DNA of 41,952 nt from Ignavibacteriota bacterium (GTDB taxonomy: Bacteria; Bacteroidota; Ignavibacteria; UBA10030): NCBI GenBank assembly GCA_003142575.1, contig PLMS01000065.1:67128-109079 (forward strand), in the 5' to 3' direction. The position numbers were made by a program, and so were the translations under genes. The notes beneath the pieces were generated by a model that was not told where the DNA came from, made no database searches, and worked only from the letters and a program-made list of their open reading frames with translations. Shown here in pieces: positions 319-36,495 of this stretch. Positions within the stretch are counted from its first letter, which is position 1. Every line of letters starts with the position of its first letter.

Positions 319-2580
319 ATGCAATCATCTACCATTGTAACAAACAGATTGTTTTTCATTCTCGTCACTGTGATGATTTTTTCCACTTTGCTTAATGCCC
401 AAATTAAAATTAAATCGAGAGTGGAGATAAAACCGGCTGGTAATCAATTACAAAATAGTTTAAACAAAAGCGGATCACTTCCCCCTACAAGTTACATCGC
501 CAATTGTTCAGGTACATATTTAGCATGGGTAATTATTGCTGCTAAAAATAGTCCTCCTTCGGAAGGCCCTATTACTGTAGCATTTCGTGATAAAGTCCGT
601 GATACAACTATGGTATTCCGGCTTTCAGATTATATAAATTACAGATATTCTTATTCTCAAGGGCAAGAGTGTGATTTCTGCAATAGACGACCCGATTGGA
701 GTTGTACATCAATAAGCGAAACAGCATATCATGCTTATTCAACAGATCCGGAATTATTTATTATGATTCCATATATTCTCAAAGGAGATACGTTAAATTT
801 TTCCTATGATAACTGTACCCAGCCTGTTAAAACCGGTGCCGGTATGGAATTTCAATTTGCGAAGAGGGATTCAATTGGCGATAAATGCTATTCATATATG
901 GAAGGCGACCTGCAAGAATTAGAACTTTGCGGTATCGAATTCGCTCCTATAAGATACTCTGTATGGCAAGACGAAGATACACTCATTTCTGGTTCATCTA
1001 CCATGCTCTATATATATACTCCTATGGATTTTGGGGATGACTCGCTGATGACTATTGAAGTTGATAGCGCGCAATATGCGAAATTTATCTATGATAAGGG
1101 AACAAGTATAGATACCCTCGATTCACCAATGGATAGTGTGAAATGCAGCGATGCTATGTCAGGCAAAATCAAGTTTCTAGCAATGGGCAAGCAACCTGAC
1201 AAACCTGTCCCTGTTGCCATCTGTGCACGCTATATGTTCGATCCATCAAAAGTATTTGAAGATACGATTGTAGTAAAGGGGAGTGAAATAATGCTCGGTG
1301 AAACAAAATATTATTACGCGACGCAGGAAACAAATGGTGAGTTGACGATACACGAAACCGTGTCGACAGAATTACCAGCAGGAGCGGTAAGCAGTGACAT
1401 TTGGGGTAATAATCCGGTAGCTCCTGTATTAATTGAAAATAAACCTTCAGGCAGAAAGTTGGGTGTTTATTGGGAGAAAAAATATCCGATCTATACTGGA
1501 AATACATTTACAAGTATGGAAGACTTGCCTACAGGAATGATACGCTTGGTGGGACGATATTGGCATAAAGATTCTGTTTATATAGTGAAACTGACTACAG
1601 GTAATTATCCCACACCAACAAGTCTGGGGATTGAAGTAAAGAAACCGACGCTTTTAGGAACTAGTGATTTTGCGAGAGCACGAAATAATGGGCTTGATAT
1701 TAATGGTCATCCATATAGCGTTGATTCTGTTTGTATCATGTGGGGTGGAATATTTGGATTTCCTCCACAAAATATTAAAGGCCAGTATGAACGTGAATCT
1801 TTTTTTGAAGATGTTGAATTACACGCATATACTCCAGGTTATAGATACGAACCATGGTCTGCGGAGTTTTGGCCGGATGTACAAAATCTTAGAACAACTA
1901 GTCATTTTTGGGTTACTAGTCAAAGTATGGGAAATGGGGATGGTGTTCCAACTCATCAAAACACGAGATATATGTCATATGTCAATCCACAACAATATGT
2001 GTGGGATTTAATAGACGAATATTCAACTATTGTTCACGACACTCCTCCAAATGAGCATGGTTATTCATTGTTTGGGTCATTCCATCAAAGCGATGGTCGA
2101 CTTACATTCATTTACCCAAGAGCAACTGGGCAGTATAATATTATTCATCGGCGTGTATATCGTCAAATGCATCTCAACAATAATGTTGAAAACTATCAAG
2201 CGAATCTTAGAGTAAGAGCTGAATTCATTGAATTCATGTCCACTATATATTTTGGAGGATTAAGTACTCGCGTTGCTCAGTCCCGTCTTGCAAGTTCGTA
2301 TGGGCCGCTTCAAACAATGTATACTACTGCTCTTGGCGAAGGTTATCAAAATGGGATCCATAATACACCTGAGAATCTTAATGATCTGAATATTTTTTTT
2401 CCTCTTGCTATGGCTCATCATATTACCCTCTTGATAGGGGAAATTGGAGAAGTTGATGCAAATAACTGGGAATCAGGGTTTGAGGAGACAATGAGAATCG
2501 TGTATAATGGATGGAATGACACACCTGGGTATGATGCACAAGTACTAAGATATTCAAGAAAATATTTGCCAACACCTTAA
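319..2580 (+). CDS. Secreted protein of unknown function, 753 aa
   Basis: I chose ATG 319 because a GAGGGG ribosome binding site (309-314) sits just before it; an in-frame TTG at 304 has no such site. Residues 1 to about 27 form a Sec signal peptide: a polar start, then a hydrophobic stretch with FFILVTVMIFSTLL, then a NAQ cleavage site. The mature part is rich in Tyr, Trp and Asp and has several cysteines, including an ECDFC...DWSC cluster near residue 115, which suggests disulfides or a metal site. I see no T9SS C-terminal domain, catalytic motif or membrane anchor. It is followed after 17 nt by another exported protein, probably in the same operon. Function unknown; export is the only supported statement. 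Confidence 0.75.
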   Translation: MQSSTIVTNRLFFILVTVMIFSTLLNAQIKIKSRVEIKPAGNQLQNSLNKSGSLPPTSYIANCSGTYLAWVIIAAKNSPPSEGPITVAFRDKVRDTTMVFRLSDYINYRYSYSQGQECDFCNRRPDWSCTSISETAYHAYSTDPELFIMIPYILKGDTLNFSYDNCTQPVKTGAGMEFQFAKRDSIGDKCYSYMEGDLQELELCGIEFAPIRYSVWQDEDTLISGSSTMLYIYTPMDFGDDSLMTIEVDSAQYAKFIYDKGTSIDTLDSPMDSVKCSDAMSGKIKFLAMGKQPDKPVPVAICARYMFDPSKVFEDTIVVKGSEIMLGETKYYYATQETNGELTIHETVSTELPAGAVSSDIWGNNPVAPVLIENKPSGRKLGVYWEKKYPIYTGNTFTSMEDLPTGMIRLVGRYWHKDSVYIVKLTTGNYPTPTSLGIEVKKPTLLGTSDFARARNNGLDINGHPYSVDSVCIMWGGIFGFPPQNIKGQYERESFFEDVELHAYTPGYRYEPWSAEFWPDVQNLRTTSHFWVTSQSMGNGDGVPTHQNTRYMSYVNPQQYVWDLIDEYSTIVHDTPPNEHGYSLFGSFHQSDGRLTFIYPRATGQYNIIHRRVYRQMHLNNNVENYQANLRVRAEFIEFMSTIYFGGLSTRVAQSRLASSYGPLQTMYTTALGEGYQNGIHNTPENLNDLNIFFPLAMAHHITLLIGEIGEVDANNWESGFEETMRIVYNGWNDTPGYDAQVLRYSRKYLPTP

Positions 2581-32943: not shown

Positions 32944-34059
32944 ATGAAAACCATCCTCATTATCGCCGGCACACGCCCGGAAATAATTAAAACTGTCCCT
33001 GTTGTAATCGAAGCGCGGAAGCGAAATGATGCAAAGGTCATCTATTGCCTCACTGGCCAGCATAAAACTATGGCGCTGGAGGCACTCTCGATCTTTGACG
33101 TAAAGCCCGATGATGATCTTCAAATCATGCGTCCGAATCAAACACTGAACATGATCTCCGAATCTGTTTTTGGGAAATTACCACCTGTCATCGAGCAGGT
33201 AAAGCCGGATGTTGTGATGGTGCAGGGTGACACCACCACTGCAGCTATGACAGCATTATGCGCGTTTAATATGAAAGTACCTGTTGCACACATCGAAGCT
33301 GGATTGCGCACTTTTAATATGGATGCTCCGTATCCGGAAGAGTGCAATCGCCGGCTTATTGGTATCGTTTCAAAATATAATTTCTGTCCGACCACAATGG
33401 CGCAGGATAATTTGCTGCGTGAGGGAACGCCGAAGGAAACGCTTTTTGTGACCGGTAATACCGTTGTGGATTCACTGCGACTGATTCAGGAAAAACATAA
33501 TCTTGATAAACTTGAACTCATTGCACTGGATGTACGAAAGCCCTTTGTCCTTATCACAGCCCATCGACGTGAAAGCTTTGGCGGTGGATTTAAAAATATC
33601 TGTACGGCAATCCGAGAATGTGCTTTGCGGTATCCTCAGTATCAATTTATATATCCTGTGCATTTGAATCCTCATGTGAAGGGTCCGGTGCATGAATTTC
33701 TGGGAAATATCAGCAATGTCAAGTTGATCCCGCCTATTCCATATCTGGAAATCCTCACGCTTATGAAGCACTGCGAGTTTGTGCTTTCTGATTCGGGAGG
33801 TATTCAGGAGGAAGCTCCTTCGTTTGGGAAACACTGTATTGTTTTACGCGAAGTGACGGAACGGATGGAAAGTGTGAATCTTGGTATGTCGGAGTTGGTC
33901 GGAACAAACGTCGAAAAAATATGTAAATCAGTCCAGCGTACCATCGAAGGAAAGATTAAATATGATATCCATCAAAATCCATACGGTGATGGTCACGCAT
34001 CTGAGAGAATTTTGGATATATTGATGAAGAGCAATAGCTGGTGTTACACAGGAAGATGA
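32944..34059 (+). CDS. wecB: UDP-N-acetylglucosamine 2-epimerase (non-hydrolysing)
   Basis: Interconverts UDP-GlcNAc and UDP-ManNAc. 371 residues with the full motif set: IAGTRPEIIKT, LTGQHKTMALEAL, VQGDTTTAAMTAL, HIEAGLRTFNMDAPYPEE, NRRLIG, ITAHRRESFGGGF, VHLNPHVKGPVHEF, SDSGGIQEEAPSFG and NPYGDGHASERIL. It could alternatively be a WbpI-type epimerase of di-acetamido sugars; the family is the same. Its base composition looks less AT-rich than the genes to its left. It is followed by REP-like repeats, not another gene. Confidence 0.94.
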   Translation: MKTILIIAGTRPEIIKTVPVVIEARKRNDAKVIYCLTGQHKTMALEALSIFDVKPDDDLQIMRPNQTLNMISESVFGKLPPVIEQVKPDVVMVQGDTTTAAMTALCAFNMKVPVAHIEAGLRTFNMDAPYPEECNRRLIGIVSKYNFCPTTMAQDNLLREGTPKETLFVTGNTVVDSLRLIQEKHNLDKLELIALDVRKPFVLITAHRRESFGGGFKNICTAIRECALRYPQYQFIYPVHLNPHVKGPVHEFLGNISNVKLIPPIPYLEILTLMKHCEFVLSDSGGIQEEAPSFGKHCIVLREVTERMESVNLGMSELVGTNVEKICKSVQRTIEGKIKYDIHQNPYGDGHASERILDILMKSNSWCYTGR

Positions 34060-34074
34060 TATGAATGATATGCC

Positions 34075-34246
34075 GCCCCTACGGGGCTCATCACTTACTT
34101 TATGAAATTTTTATAAATATCACGCTCCTGCCCGAGCTATTGAAAACATTTTTAATAAAACATTATTAAAAGTCCCGAAGGGACGAAATAATTATAGTAA
34201 AGGAAAAGAGAAGAAAAAAAGCTCCATGAGGAGCGGCATAGTGTGC
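34075..34246 (+). repeat. REP-like module A upstream of the transposase
   Basis: Contains, in order: GCCCC-TAC-GGGGC (34075-34087); a looser TATAAATATCACGCTCCTGC element ending in CGAGC (about 34111-34138); GTCCCGAAGGGACGAAATA (34172-34190); and GCTCC-ATGA-GGAGC (34221-34234) + GGCATA. The third and fourth are in the opposite orientation to the second, giving inverted pairs as in BIMEs. Positions 34134-34212 are repeated at 34343-34421 with one mismatch. Confidence 0.85.
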
Positions 34247-34284
34247 ATAGAAGAGGAAAAATGTTTATCTGAAGTCTTGATGTC

Positions 34285-34452
34285 ACCCCTATGGGGTTTA
34301 TAGATTTACTATTGATTATTTTATAAGTATCATACTTTGACGGAGCTATTGAAAACATTTTTAATAAAACATTATTAAAAGTCCCGAAGGGACGAAATAA
34401 TTATAGAAAAGGAAAAGAGAAATGAAGCTCCGATAGGAGCGGAATAATTATA
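34285..34452 (+). repeat. REP-like module B, 209 bp after module A
   Basis: The same order as module A: ACCCC-TAT-GGGGT (34285-34297); a degenerate TATAAGTATCATACTTTGAC element ending in GGAGC (about 34322-34347); GTCCCGAAGGGACGAAATA (34381-34399); GCTCCGATAGGAGC (34427-34440) + GGAATAATTATAAG. The last copy ends about 35 nt before the transposase start. The region 34060-34487 holds no gene. Confidence 0.85.
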
Positions 34453-34487
34453 AGATGTGTGCGCCACATTTCAGGTGAGAGGGAATT

Positions 34488-34958
34488 ATGTCTAATACAT
34501 ATACGCAGATATATATCCAATCTGTGTTCGCTGTGAAGGGACGTCAAAATCTCATCTTCCAAGATCATGAAGATGAATTGTATCGCTACATTGGTGGAAT
34601 TCTAAGAAATAAAGGTCATAAATCTCTTGCGATTAATGGTATGCCCGATCACATTCATGTTTTCTTTGGAATGAAGCCAACGGAATCGCTTTCAGATTTG
34701 ATGAGAGACATAAAGGCAAATTCCTCAGGATTCATTAATGATAAAAAATGGTTTCCAGGAAAATTCCATTGGCAGGAAGGATTTGGTAGTTTTTCTTATT
34801 CTCATTCGCAATTGGATAATGTCATATGGTATATCAAGAATCAAAAAGAGCATCATAAAAAGAAATCATTCAGAGAAGAATATCTCTCTTTCTTAAAAGA
34901 ATTTGACATCCAATATGATGATAGATATGTCGTTGCTCCGATAGAAGAATATAAATAA
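34488..34958 (+). mobile_element. Y1 (HUH) transposase, IS200/RAYT-like
   Basis: 156 residues, a single-domain Y1_Tnp protein that cuts and rejoins single-stranded DNA. The HUH motif is MPDHIHVFF (H55, H57) and the catalytic tyrosine is very probably Y115 in NVIWYIKNQKEHHKKKSF. All appear intact. ATG 34488 follows GAGAGGGA (34476-34483). Palindromic REP-like elements enclose it: inverted copies end 35 nt upstream and start about 13 nt downstream. This fits a REP-associated tyrosine transposase (RAYT) more than a plain IS200, but by sequence alone the two grade into each other. Confidence 0.88.
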
Positions 34959-34970
34959 TAGCTCTCGCAT

Positions 34971-35045
34971 GGTTTATGTCGTTCCGATGGAGCTTGAATT
35001 AGATTGGTGGAAATATCTATAAATATTACAACTCCTACGGGGCTT
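34971..35045 (+). repeat. REP-like elements downstream of the transposase
   Basis: GTTCC-GAT-GGAGC (34981-34993) preceded by TTTATGTC, and a TATAAATATTACAACTCCTA element ending in CGGGGC (about 35019-35043). Both have the orientation opposite to the copies nearest the transposase start, so the gene lies between inverted ends. Confidence 0.7.
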
Positions 35046-35076
35046 GTTTACTGTTGCATTAAAAAATAAGTTAGCA

Positions 35077-36495
35077 ATGAATTCTCGTCGTCAACATATT
35101 ATCACAATACTGATCGATATCCTCACCATCAATCTGGCATATCTGGCGTACTACGTTTTTCGTGTACGAAGCGGGTGGATTCCGTACAGTATCGAGCCTG
35201 AACTTCTCCTGCCTATGATGTTCATCTGTGTGTACTGGCTCATCTGGTTTGGTTTGTTCGGTCTCTACCGTTTGTGGTATGAACAATCCCGTATCGATGA
35301 AATCCTTACGATTGTTCGATCAACGATGGTCGGCGCTTTGATTTTGTTCTTTCTCATCTTCCTGGATGATACTTCCAGTGAAACCATTGTCCAGTCGCGT
35401 CTTCTCATCCTTGGATATTGGACTGCATTAACATTTTTGGTAATTACAGGTAGGTTAACACAGCGATTTGTTCAAAGGAAATTGCTCGTCGCCGGGGTTG
35501 GACTTCGGAATACGATAATCGTTGGTTGGTCGGATAAAGCTTTTAAACTGTGCGATATGGTTCTGAAGTATCCAGCATTGGGATATAAAGTTGTAGGATT
35601 TGTAAAAGCGGGAGCGAAGATCGACAGTACACAGCGGATAAAGAGAAACACGTATCAAAATATTCCTGTCTTAGGTTCAATTCAAGATGTGTCTCATCTT
35701 ATTAAGAAACATACAATTCATGAAGTTCTGATTGGACTCGACACAACAGAACACAGTCAATTGATAGATATCATGCGCCAATGCGATTCCGTCGATATTG
35801 GAATGAAAATTATGCCTGATTTATATGATATCGTCAGCGGACAGGCGCGGATCAGTTCTCTCTATGGTTTACCGCTCATGGATGTGCGCCCGCAATTGAT
35901 GAAGCCATGGGAAGAGGCGGCAAAGCGAGTACTTGATTGCCTGTTTTCACTGTCAGTGCTTATCATCGGATTTCCGGTGTGGATGCTCATAGCTCTTCTC
36001 ATCAAAGTTGATTCCAGAGGACATGTACTCTATCGTCAAACGCGGGTCGGCAGGAATGGAAGACATTTTAAGATCCTTAAATTCCGTTCTATGTGGACCG
36101 ATGCAGAAAGACATTCTGGTCCGGTTTGGGCAGGGAAGAACGATCCTCGTGTGACACGACTTGGCCGCTTTCTTCGAAAGACGCACCTTGATGAGCTTCC
36201 GCAGTTTGTCAACGTGCTTATAGGTGATATGAGTTTGGTGGGGCCACGACCTGAACGCCCGTTCTTTGTGGACAAGATTACGAAAGAAGTTCCGTTGTAT
36301 AATCACCGTCATCGCGTAAGGCCCGGTATTACCGGTTGGGCACAGGTGAAACATAAATATGATGAGAATATGGAAGACGTGCGAGCTAAGATCAAGTACG
36401 ATCTCTTCTATATTGAAAACCTCTCATGGCGAATGGACCTCAAAATTCTTTTTAACACTCTCTATGTCATGATAGCCGGGAAAGGACATGCATAA
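35077..36495 (+). CDS. Undecaprenyl-phosphate sugar-phosphate transferase (initiating PGT)
   Basis: Transfers the first sugar-1-phosphate onto polyprenyl phosphate, starting repeat-unit assembly. 472 residues from ATG 35077; an in-frame TTG at 35044 lies within a REP-like element. The N-terminal half has four to five membrane helices and a CoA_binding_3-like Rossmann region ([14 protein letters not shown]). The PGT domain is from about 283: [10 protein letters not shown], then [20 protein letters not shown], the catalytic DELPQ (D372, E373), [13 protein letters not shown] and [11 protein letters not shown]. It is a WbaP/EpsE-type enzyme with all landmarks intact. Confidence 0.93.

Follow-up and report, generated by a model that had tools for sequence, protein, structure and literature searches.

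Organization of the locus

The window analysed here is a stretch of 41,952 nucleotides from an Ignavibacteriota bacterium (phylum Bacteroidota; source genome of 3.28 Mb in 152 contigs). Between the genes for an epimerase and an initiating sugar-phosphate transferase it carries a short transposase gene, tnpA, set among small DNA hairpins (Table 1). The offset between the two hairpin modules upstream of tnpA is exactly 209 bp, and an 84-nt block is 96% identical between them. A preliminary description of this DNA had reported a 79-nt block with one mismatch, which lies inside the 84-nt block, and the array it described is real. The four palindromes that it assigned to each module could all be located, but the second is decayed, reading GCTC...GAGC with a 6-nt loop in one module and ACTTT-gac-GGAGC in the other, so that three of the four are intact per module. 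Folded as single-stranded DNA, unit 1 beats all of its shuffles (z -3.4, 0/200). The Y1 gene that was said to follow the modules is indeed intact. The copies reported beyond it are inverted relative to the nearest upstream hairpins, as stated, but they amount to a single decayed half-unit in forward orientation, in which the first stem retains 4 of 5 pairs and the second 3 of 5. The 5′ end of the transferase gene had also been thought to overlap the last element. That start, a TTG at 35044, was a mechanical call, and a gene reaching into the array is ruled out by the start codon common to the congeners, which corresponds to the ATG at 35078.

Table 1. Features of the tnpA locus (positions within the window)
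Feature	Position	Strand	Orientation	Remarks
Upstream neighbour, UDP-GlcNAc 2-epimerase (Epimerase_2)	32944..34059	+		Outside the system
Left MITE TIR remnant (CTGRTGTTACACAG...)	34038..34066	+		Local alignment to TIR consensus
Unit 1, four hairpins P1-P4	34072..34246	+		Alignment with dispersed copies, fold
Unit 1 P1	34075-34087		forward	
Unit 1 P2	34124-34137		forward	Decayed
Unit 1 P3	34172-34184		reverse	
Unit 1 P4	34221-34234		reverse	
Unit 2, P1-P4	34282..34452	+		Sequence comparison
Unit 2 P1	34285-34297			
Unit 2 P2	34334-34346			Decayed
Unit 2 P3	34381-34393			
Unit 2 P4	34427-34440			
Right MITE TIR remnant (AAGATGTGTGCGCCACAT)	34450..34470	+		
tnpA, HUH/Y1 transposase, TnpA-Y1 subclass 1.2 (by motifs and tree)	34488..34958	+		156 aa
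Downstream half-unit	34976..35043	+		Both stems decayed; matches foot consensus of 298 tandem pairs
Half-unit, first part	34976-34980 (foot ATGTC), 34981-34993 (hairpin)			
Half-unit, second part	35017-35030 (foot CTATAAATATTACA), 35031-35043 (hairpin)			
Downstream neighbour, initiating sugar-phosphate transferase (Bac_transf)	35078..36495	+		Start inferred; outside the system

The TIR remnants on either side of the array belong to a separate, DDE-type MITE family. The left remnant, whose alignment to the TIR consensus was equalled by 3 of 5000 shuffles, encodes the last codons of the epimerase, including the stop at 34057-34059. The epimerase C-terminus SWCYTGR (34038-34059) thus comes from the TIR remnant, and the congener proteins have other ends. 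In the region from 33500 to 35600 the transferase is 95-96% identical to that of one congener (G393, contig C114), compared with 77-82% for the upstream epimerase; this step in identity indicates a recombination breakpoint at or near the array.

Classification of the transposase

The tnpA product matches the Pfam Y1_Tnp family (3.7e-23) and passes the NCBIfam IS200 model (61.9 bits against a threshold of 55), whereas it scores 29.8 bits against the NCBIfam RAYT model, which has a cut-off of 80. Its motifs, DHIH, WQ and YIKNQKEHH, are those published for TnpA-Y1 subclass 1.2 (DH[IV]H, WQ, YIKNQKEHH; ~150 aa), a group described as sister to IS200/IS605, generally without IS200 terminal structures, and tabulated as REP ‘no’ with a copy number of 1.7 and a range of Cyanobacteria and Bacteroidetes (Quentin et al. 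2018, PMC6006769). The HUH, WQ and Y..Q..HH features were found at 90 of 90 loci of the phylum, and residues H55, Q96, Y115 and H123 are invariant across 170 subclass 1.2 proteins. A tree that included E. coli RayT, five other class 2 proteins and three tnpB-linked IS605 transposases split the Y..Q..HH proteins from the RAYTs (100/98) and from IS605 (99/92), the latter separation being less secure with only three IS605 rows. An AlphaFold model of the protein (pLDDT 89) has its best PDB matches in the folds of ISDra2 and IS608 TnpA, followed by the RAYT 4er8. Judged by its motifs and its place in the tree, the window TnpA is a member of subclass 1.2, sister to IS200/IS605. The tree proposed earlier, of this protein against the IS200 and RAYT groups, placed it in subclass 1.2 and not among the RAYTs.

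The gene is present in the source genome as one close copy, with two further homologs of ~30% identity and no near-identical second copy, in keeping with the earlier expectation that near-identical insertion sequence copies would be absent. These two further Y..Q..HH transposase genes (L002, C135:31745-32188; L003, C11:62006-62413) have different and longer palindromes on their flanks (e.g. ATTGCCGTGCYCTTAAGRGCACGGCAAT plus GGACTTTAGTCC), similar to one of the TIR-MITE cores. Among plasmid matches, only two, with 53% and 37% identity, resemble subclass 1.2; the other plasmid matches and the phage matches were distant IS605-type proteins with 25-29% identity.

Hairpins at subclass 1.2 genes

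When 392 Bacteroidota genomes were searched at the protein level (E <= 1e-30), relatives of TnpA were found in 116 genomes from 69 genera. Hairpins with a perfect 5-bp GC-rich stem and a 3-4-nt loop were then counted within 400 nt of each gene and compared with dinucleotide shuffles, which keep base composition and not the biology of gene flanks, and also with a distance profile. The first set of 90 loci had 451 hairpins versus ~34 in shuffled sequence, and 86 of the 90 loci had at least two, where 5.6 were expected. A second set of 80 named loci, many from MAGs, includes Cloacimonadota, Neomarinimicrobiota, Verrucomicrobiota, Poribacteria, Acidobacteria, Chloroflexi, Methylococcaceae and Desulfonema magnum; it had 410 hairpins versus 29, with at least two at 78 loci. 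Together the sets, which share a few genomes and lie outside the Cyanobacteria, give at least two hairpins at 164 of 170 loci (861 versus ~63 expected) in Bacteroidota and at least seven other phyla. Hairpins become sparser with distance, from ~1 per 100 nt next to the gene to 0.1 per 100 nt at more than 500 nt. We therefore take the published REP ‘no’ for subclass 1.2 as a family description to be corrected, not as a ground for excluding the window TnpA: unlike the published picture, nearly every member here has flanking hairpin arrays.

The hairpins follow a common grammar. Neighbouring hairpins are spaced 48-54 nt apart, and the nearest ones lie at a median of 41 nt 5′ of the start codon and 33 nt 3′ of the stop. 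On the upstream side the hairpin closest to the gene is usually reversed (68:13), on the downstream side usually forward (63:15). Oriented by flank, 479 hairpins yielded a one-sided foot, TA(C/T)AAA.AT(G/T)TC, with the deep consensus (CTATAAAC)AT(G/T)TC. Among 298 tandem pairs, the foot is AT(G)TC at the outer hairpin and CTATAAACATkTC at the inner one, 36-39 nt further on; these pairs were partly selected on TA.AAA.AT.C, and the independent bases are the others, e.g. the leading C at 75%. Dispersed units in the source genome and its congeners have the order P1P2P3P4 in forward-forward-reverse-reverse (FFRR) orientation, that is, two tandem pairs, inverted, over ~165-175 bp. The BIME layout assigned to the locus earlier must be abandoned, as FFRR is not the strict alternation of a BIME.

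Gene and hairpin type also go together. The same stem sequence occurs in the upstream and downstream flanks at 76% of loci, compared with 23% after permutation. The more alike two proteins are, the more alike are their hairpin profiles (Mantel r 0.52, p <= 0.001), a signal that also fits plain co-inheritance of the gene and its flank. Four genomes (G112, G302, G271 and G236) each carry two tnpA copies that are 51-56% identical, and in the last three of these the paralogs have different hairpin types within one genome, so that a genome-wide background does not explain the association.

Dispersal of the hairpin units

The preliminary description had predicted many dispersed copies without the gene. 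Dispersal was found, but it is weak in the source genome, with four further units, all inside or beside TIR-MITEs. A search of that genome for the palindrome returned 12 sites, which form inverted pairs with near-fixed spacing, and a single site for the reversed control. Across the 392 genomes, one hairpin pattern gave 579 matches versus 7 for the reversed control. It is present in 56 of 116 tnpA-bearing genomes versus 41 of 276 others (odds ratio 5.3). The exact pattern scanned is absent from about half of the tnpA-bearing genomes, and the 276 others may include sister-clade genes below the E threshold. Stratification by family left the enrichment in place (CMH, OR 4.8, p ~1e-6). An intergenic bias was seen as well, with 19 of 20 dispersed sites, a non-random sample from the matches listed, being intergenic versus 23% noncoding sequence.

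Four congeners (G394, G078, G393 and G395) lack the array at the junction between epimerase and transferase, with 19-107 bp between the aligned gene ends. In a fifth, G392, the junction contains at least two tandem units with neither tnpA nor such TIRs, the copy number being uncertain where two contig ends overlap by 30 bases. These states indicate that the array was gained or lost as a discrete piece and can be separated from the gene. The congeners, which are ~75% identical and whose flanks are too diverged for junctions or target sites to be read, yielded no recent insertion.

The TIR family, CTGATGTTACGCA...TGCGTAACATCAG, occurs at 21 sites of the source genome versus 1 in the control, with ~7-bp target duplications (C142:17561-17808, C71:29790-29972, C5:22777-22919, C53:14192, C82:6483 and others; L145-L165). 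It encloses at least four unrelated hairpin cores, the P1-P4 unit among them, and seems to be a DDE-type MITE that takes up interchangeable REP-like cargo. A stretch of ~100 bp, TTGACTTTT...TACAGTA...GCCGTTTCGGCGCCAA.TGATAC, lies before a gene at window positions ~190-290 and recurs on C82 beside a TIR-MITE (L148), possibly as a repeated promoter or leader.

Relation to named repeats

The array matches no Rfam family at gathering score. It scores 20.3 bits against Acido-Lenti-1 (RF01687), for which the gathering score is 37, and identity with that family was accordingly dropped. Acido-Lenti-1 does contain a hairpin of the same type as those in the window, although the first of its hairpins is longer. 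Of the 392 genomes, 72 carry the family, frequently with many copies each, and in eight genomes picked for having it, 20 gathering-level matches lie beside 8 of 20 Y1 genes. Acido-Lenti-1 flanks Y1 genes in inverted layout at L278, L279, L284, L285, L289, L299 and other loci, as at L285, where copies at 1373-1418 (-) and 1987-2032 (+) surround the gene. The proteins so flanked have Y..Q..HH wherever the motif scan could read them, and they form a sister clade in the tree that also includes the two other Y1 genes of the source genome. Weaker evidence comes from co-occurrence of Acido-Lenti-1 with the window type of tnpA (family-stratified OR 4.2, p 2e-4). Given its position beside sister-clade Y1 genes, this ‘RNA’ is most simply read as the double-hairpin repeat of such a system, and Acido-Lenti-1 is probably a mobile DNA repeat and not an RNA. 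A recent study reads Acido-Lenti-1 matches as possible regulators of proteases (PMC13298647, 2026). One Flavo-1 RNA match beside a tnpA (RF01705; L030, 1179-1257, 43.6 bits) differs in structure and was set aside as coincidence.

CGTC-tagged REPs are short palindromes reported in Bacteroidetes; they carry an NGTC-like tag on the 5′ side and are said to have neither a dedicated nor a known flanking transposase. They have 8-9 bp stems, 4-5 nt loops and a CCA tail (PMC3733652). The window type has a similar NGTC-like tag, but differs in its 5-bp stems, its AT(G/T)TC foot and the absence of a CCA tail. RAYT REPtrons with REPINs or BIMEs, e.g. E. coli rayT (PMC2817692, PMC8266576), share with the present system a low-copy Y1 gene, inverted flanking palindromes, dispersed intergenic palindromes and paralog-specific repeats. 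They differ in protein class, in their GT[AG]G foot and in lacking the FFRR order of 5-bp stems paired ~50 nt apart; the Marinomonas Mb REPtron also has 5-bp stems, but with GTAG (PMC8266576). IS608 and ISDra2 resemble the window system in fold, catalytic residues, the Y-x3-Q motif and hairpins on both sides of the gene. In contrast to IS200/IS605 elements, however, there is no tnpB, there are no identical copies, many hairpins take the place of one per end, and subclass 1.2 has an extra HH after the Q.

Interpretation and alternative explanations

The preliminary description was right about the kind of system, a low-copy Y1 gene among its own REP-like hairpins with gene-less copies dispersed. 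We consider it likely that the locus is a REPtron-like system of a new class, that of TnpA-Y1 subclass 1.2, in which TnpA is predicted to cut single-stranded DNA hairpins and to spread the units. Behind this reading stand the observed anatomy, the near-universal presence of hairpins, their co-variation with the protein, the paralog types, the dispersal, the intergenic bias and the presence or absence of the array at the junction. More generally, the subclass 1.2 enzymes very probably have their own scattered repeats, which they recognise and may also spread. TnpA would act as a single-strand nuclease and strand-transferase that recognises a 5-bp GC-rich stem with a 3-4-nt loop and the 5′ foot AT(G/T)TC, extended at inner hairpins to CTATAAACATkTC. 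As a dimer, it may bind hairpins on single strands at replication, either on the lagging strand or extruded. In IS608 and RAYTs a tetranucleotide 5′ of the hairpin guides the choice of cleavage site (PMC8266576), and by analogy the foot could serve as cleavage guide here. Y115 would then cut, the ends would be rejoined, and the two inverted tandem pairs, as a mobile non-autonomous FFRR unit, would be moved or copied by the cognate TnpA. The tnpA gene, placed between units with reversed hairpins upstream and forward hairpins downstream, would itself stay at low copy while the units spread.

The locus had originally been taken for a true RAYT (TnpA-REP, class 2) in a BIME array. The layout is alike, with a low-copy Y1 gene and inverted flanking palindromes that are also dispersed, but the protein has Y-x3-Q-x2-HH where RAYTs have Y..NP, the foot is AT(G/T)TC and not GT[AG]G, and both the RAYT model score and the 100/98 split in the tree speak against membership. 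Motif and tree rule out the RAYT class, and we give that proposal almost no credence. An ordinary IS200/IS605-type insertion sequence, with subterminal hairpins multiplied locally and dispersed units as its MITEs, is unlikely but deserves more weight: the protein passes the IS200 model, the group is sister to IS605 transposases, and the inverted flanking hairpins resemble left and right ends. Against it, there is no tnpB next to the gene and no near-identical second copy, the next homologs being ~30% identical and the copies in the four two-copy genomes no closer than the 51-56% given above. The gene also lies between units, outside the dispersed P1-P4 unit, and gene-less units occupy the corresponding site in G392.

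It is improbable, too, that the unit is simply cargo of the DDE-type MITE with CTGATGTTACGCA termini and ~7-bp target duplications, its link to tnpA being incidental here. All four dispersed units of the source genome lie within or next to such TIRs, and TIR remnants flank the window array on both sides, but this leaves unexplained why, in other taxa, 164 of 170 tnpA loci have hairpins, and why the units in G392 show no such TIRs. Since the same TIRs also enclose unrelated cores, the MITE looks like a vehicle that captures such units. Finally, the hairpins might act in the transposase mRNA as transcription terminators or regulatory structures and not be substrates of the transposase; their closeness to the gene and the Rfam entry of the related Acido-Lenti-1 as an sRNA could suggest this. 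We regard this reading as very improbable, because the hairpins occur in both orientations and in FFRR tandem arrays in intergenic DNA far from tnpA, a DNA foot is conserved on one side of each, and their types are paralog-specific.

With more reserve than for the locus itself, we favour the broader view that the Y..Q..HH TnpAs make up a third, widespread group of single-strand transposases partnered with hairpins, next to IS200/IS605 and the RAYTs, with a grammar of their own (tandem hairpins ~five helical turns apart, the foot CTATAAACATkTC, mobile FFRR units), and that they are the missing cognates of repeats now unassigned or annotated as RNA, including Acido-Lenti-1. A subclass of HUH nucleases described without partners, as neither insertion sequence nor REP-associated, now has a defined candidate DNA substrate, which opens its biochemistry to direct tests. 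The partnership of transposase and repeat would thereby extend well past the class 2 RAYTs, and it would account for the short palindromes dispersed in genomes of Bacteroidota and other phyla. It also indicates that an Rfam ‘small RNA’ family carried into genome annotations is probably a mobile DNA repeat.
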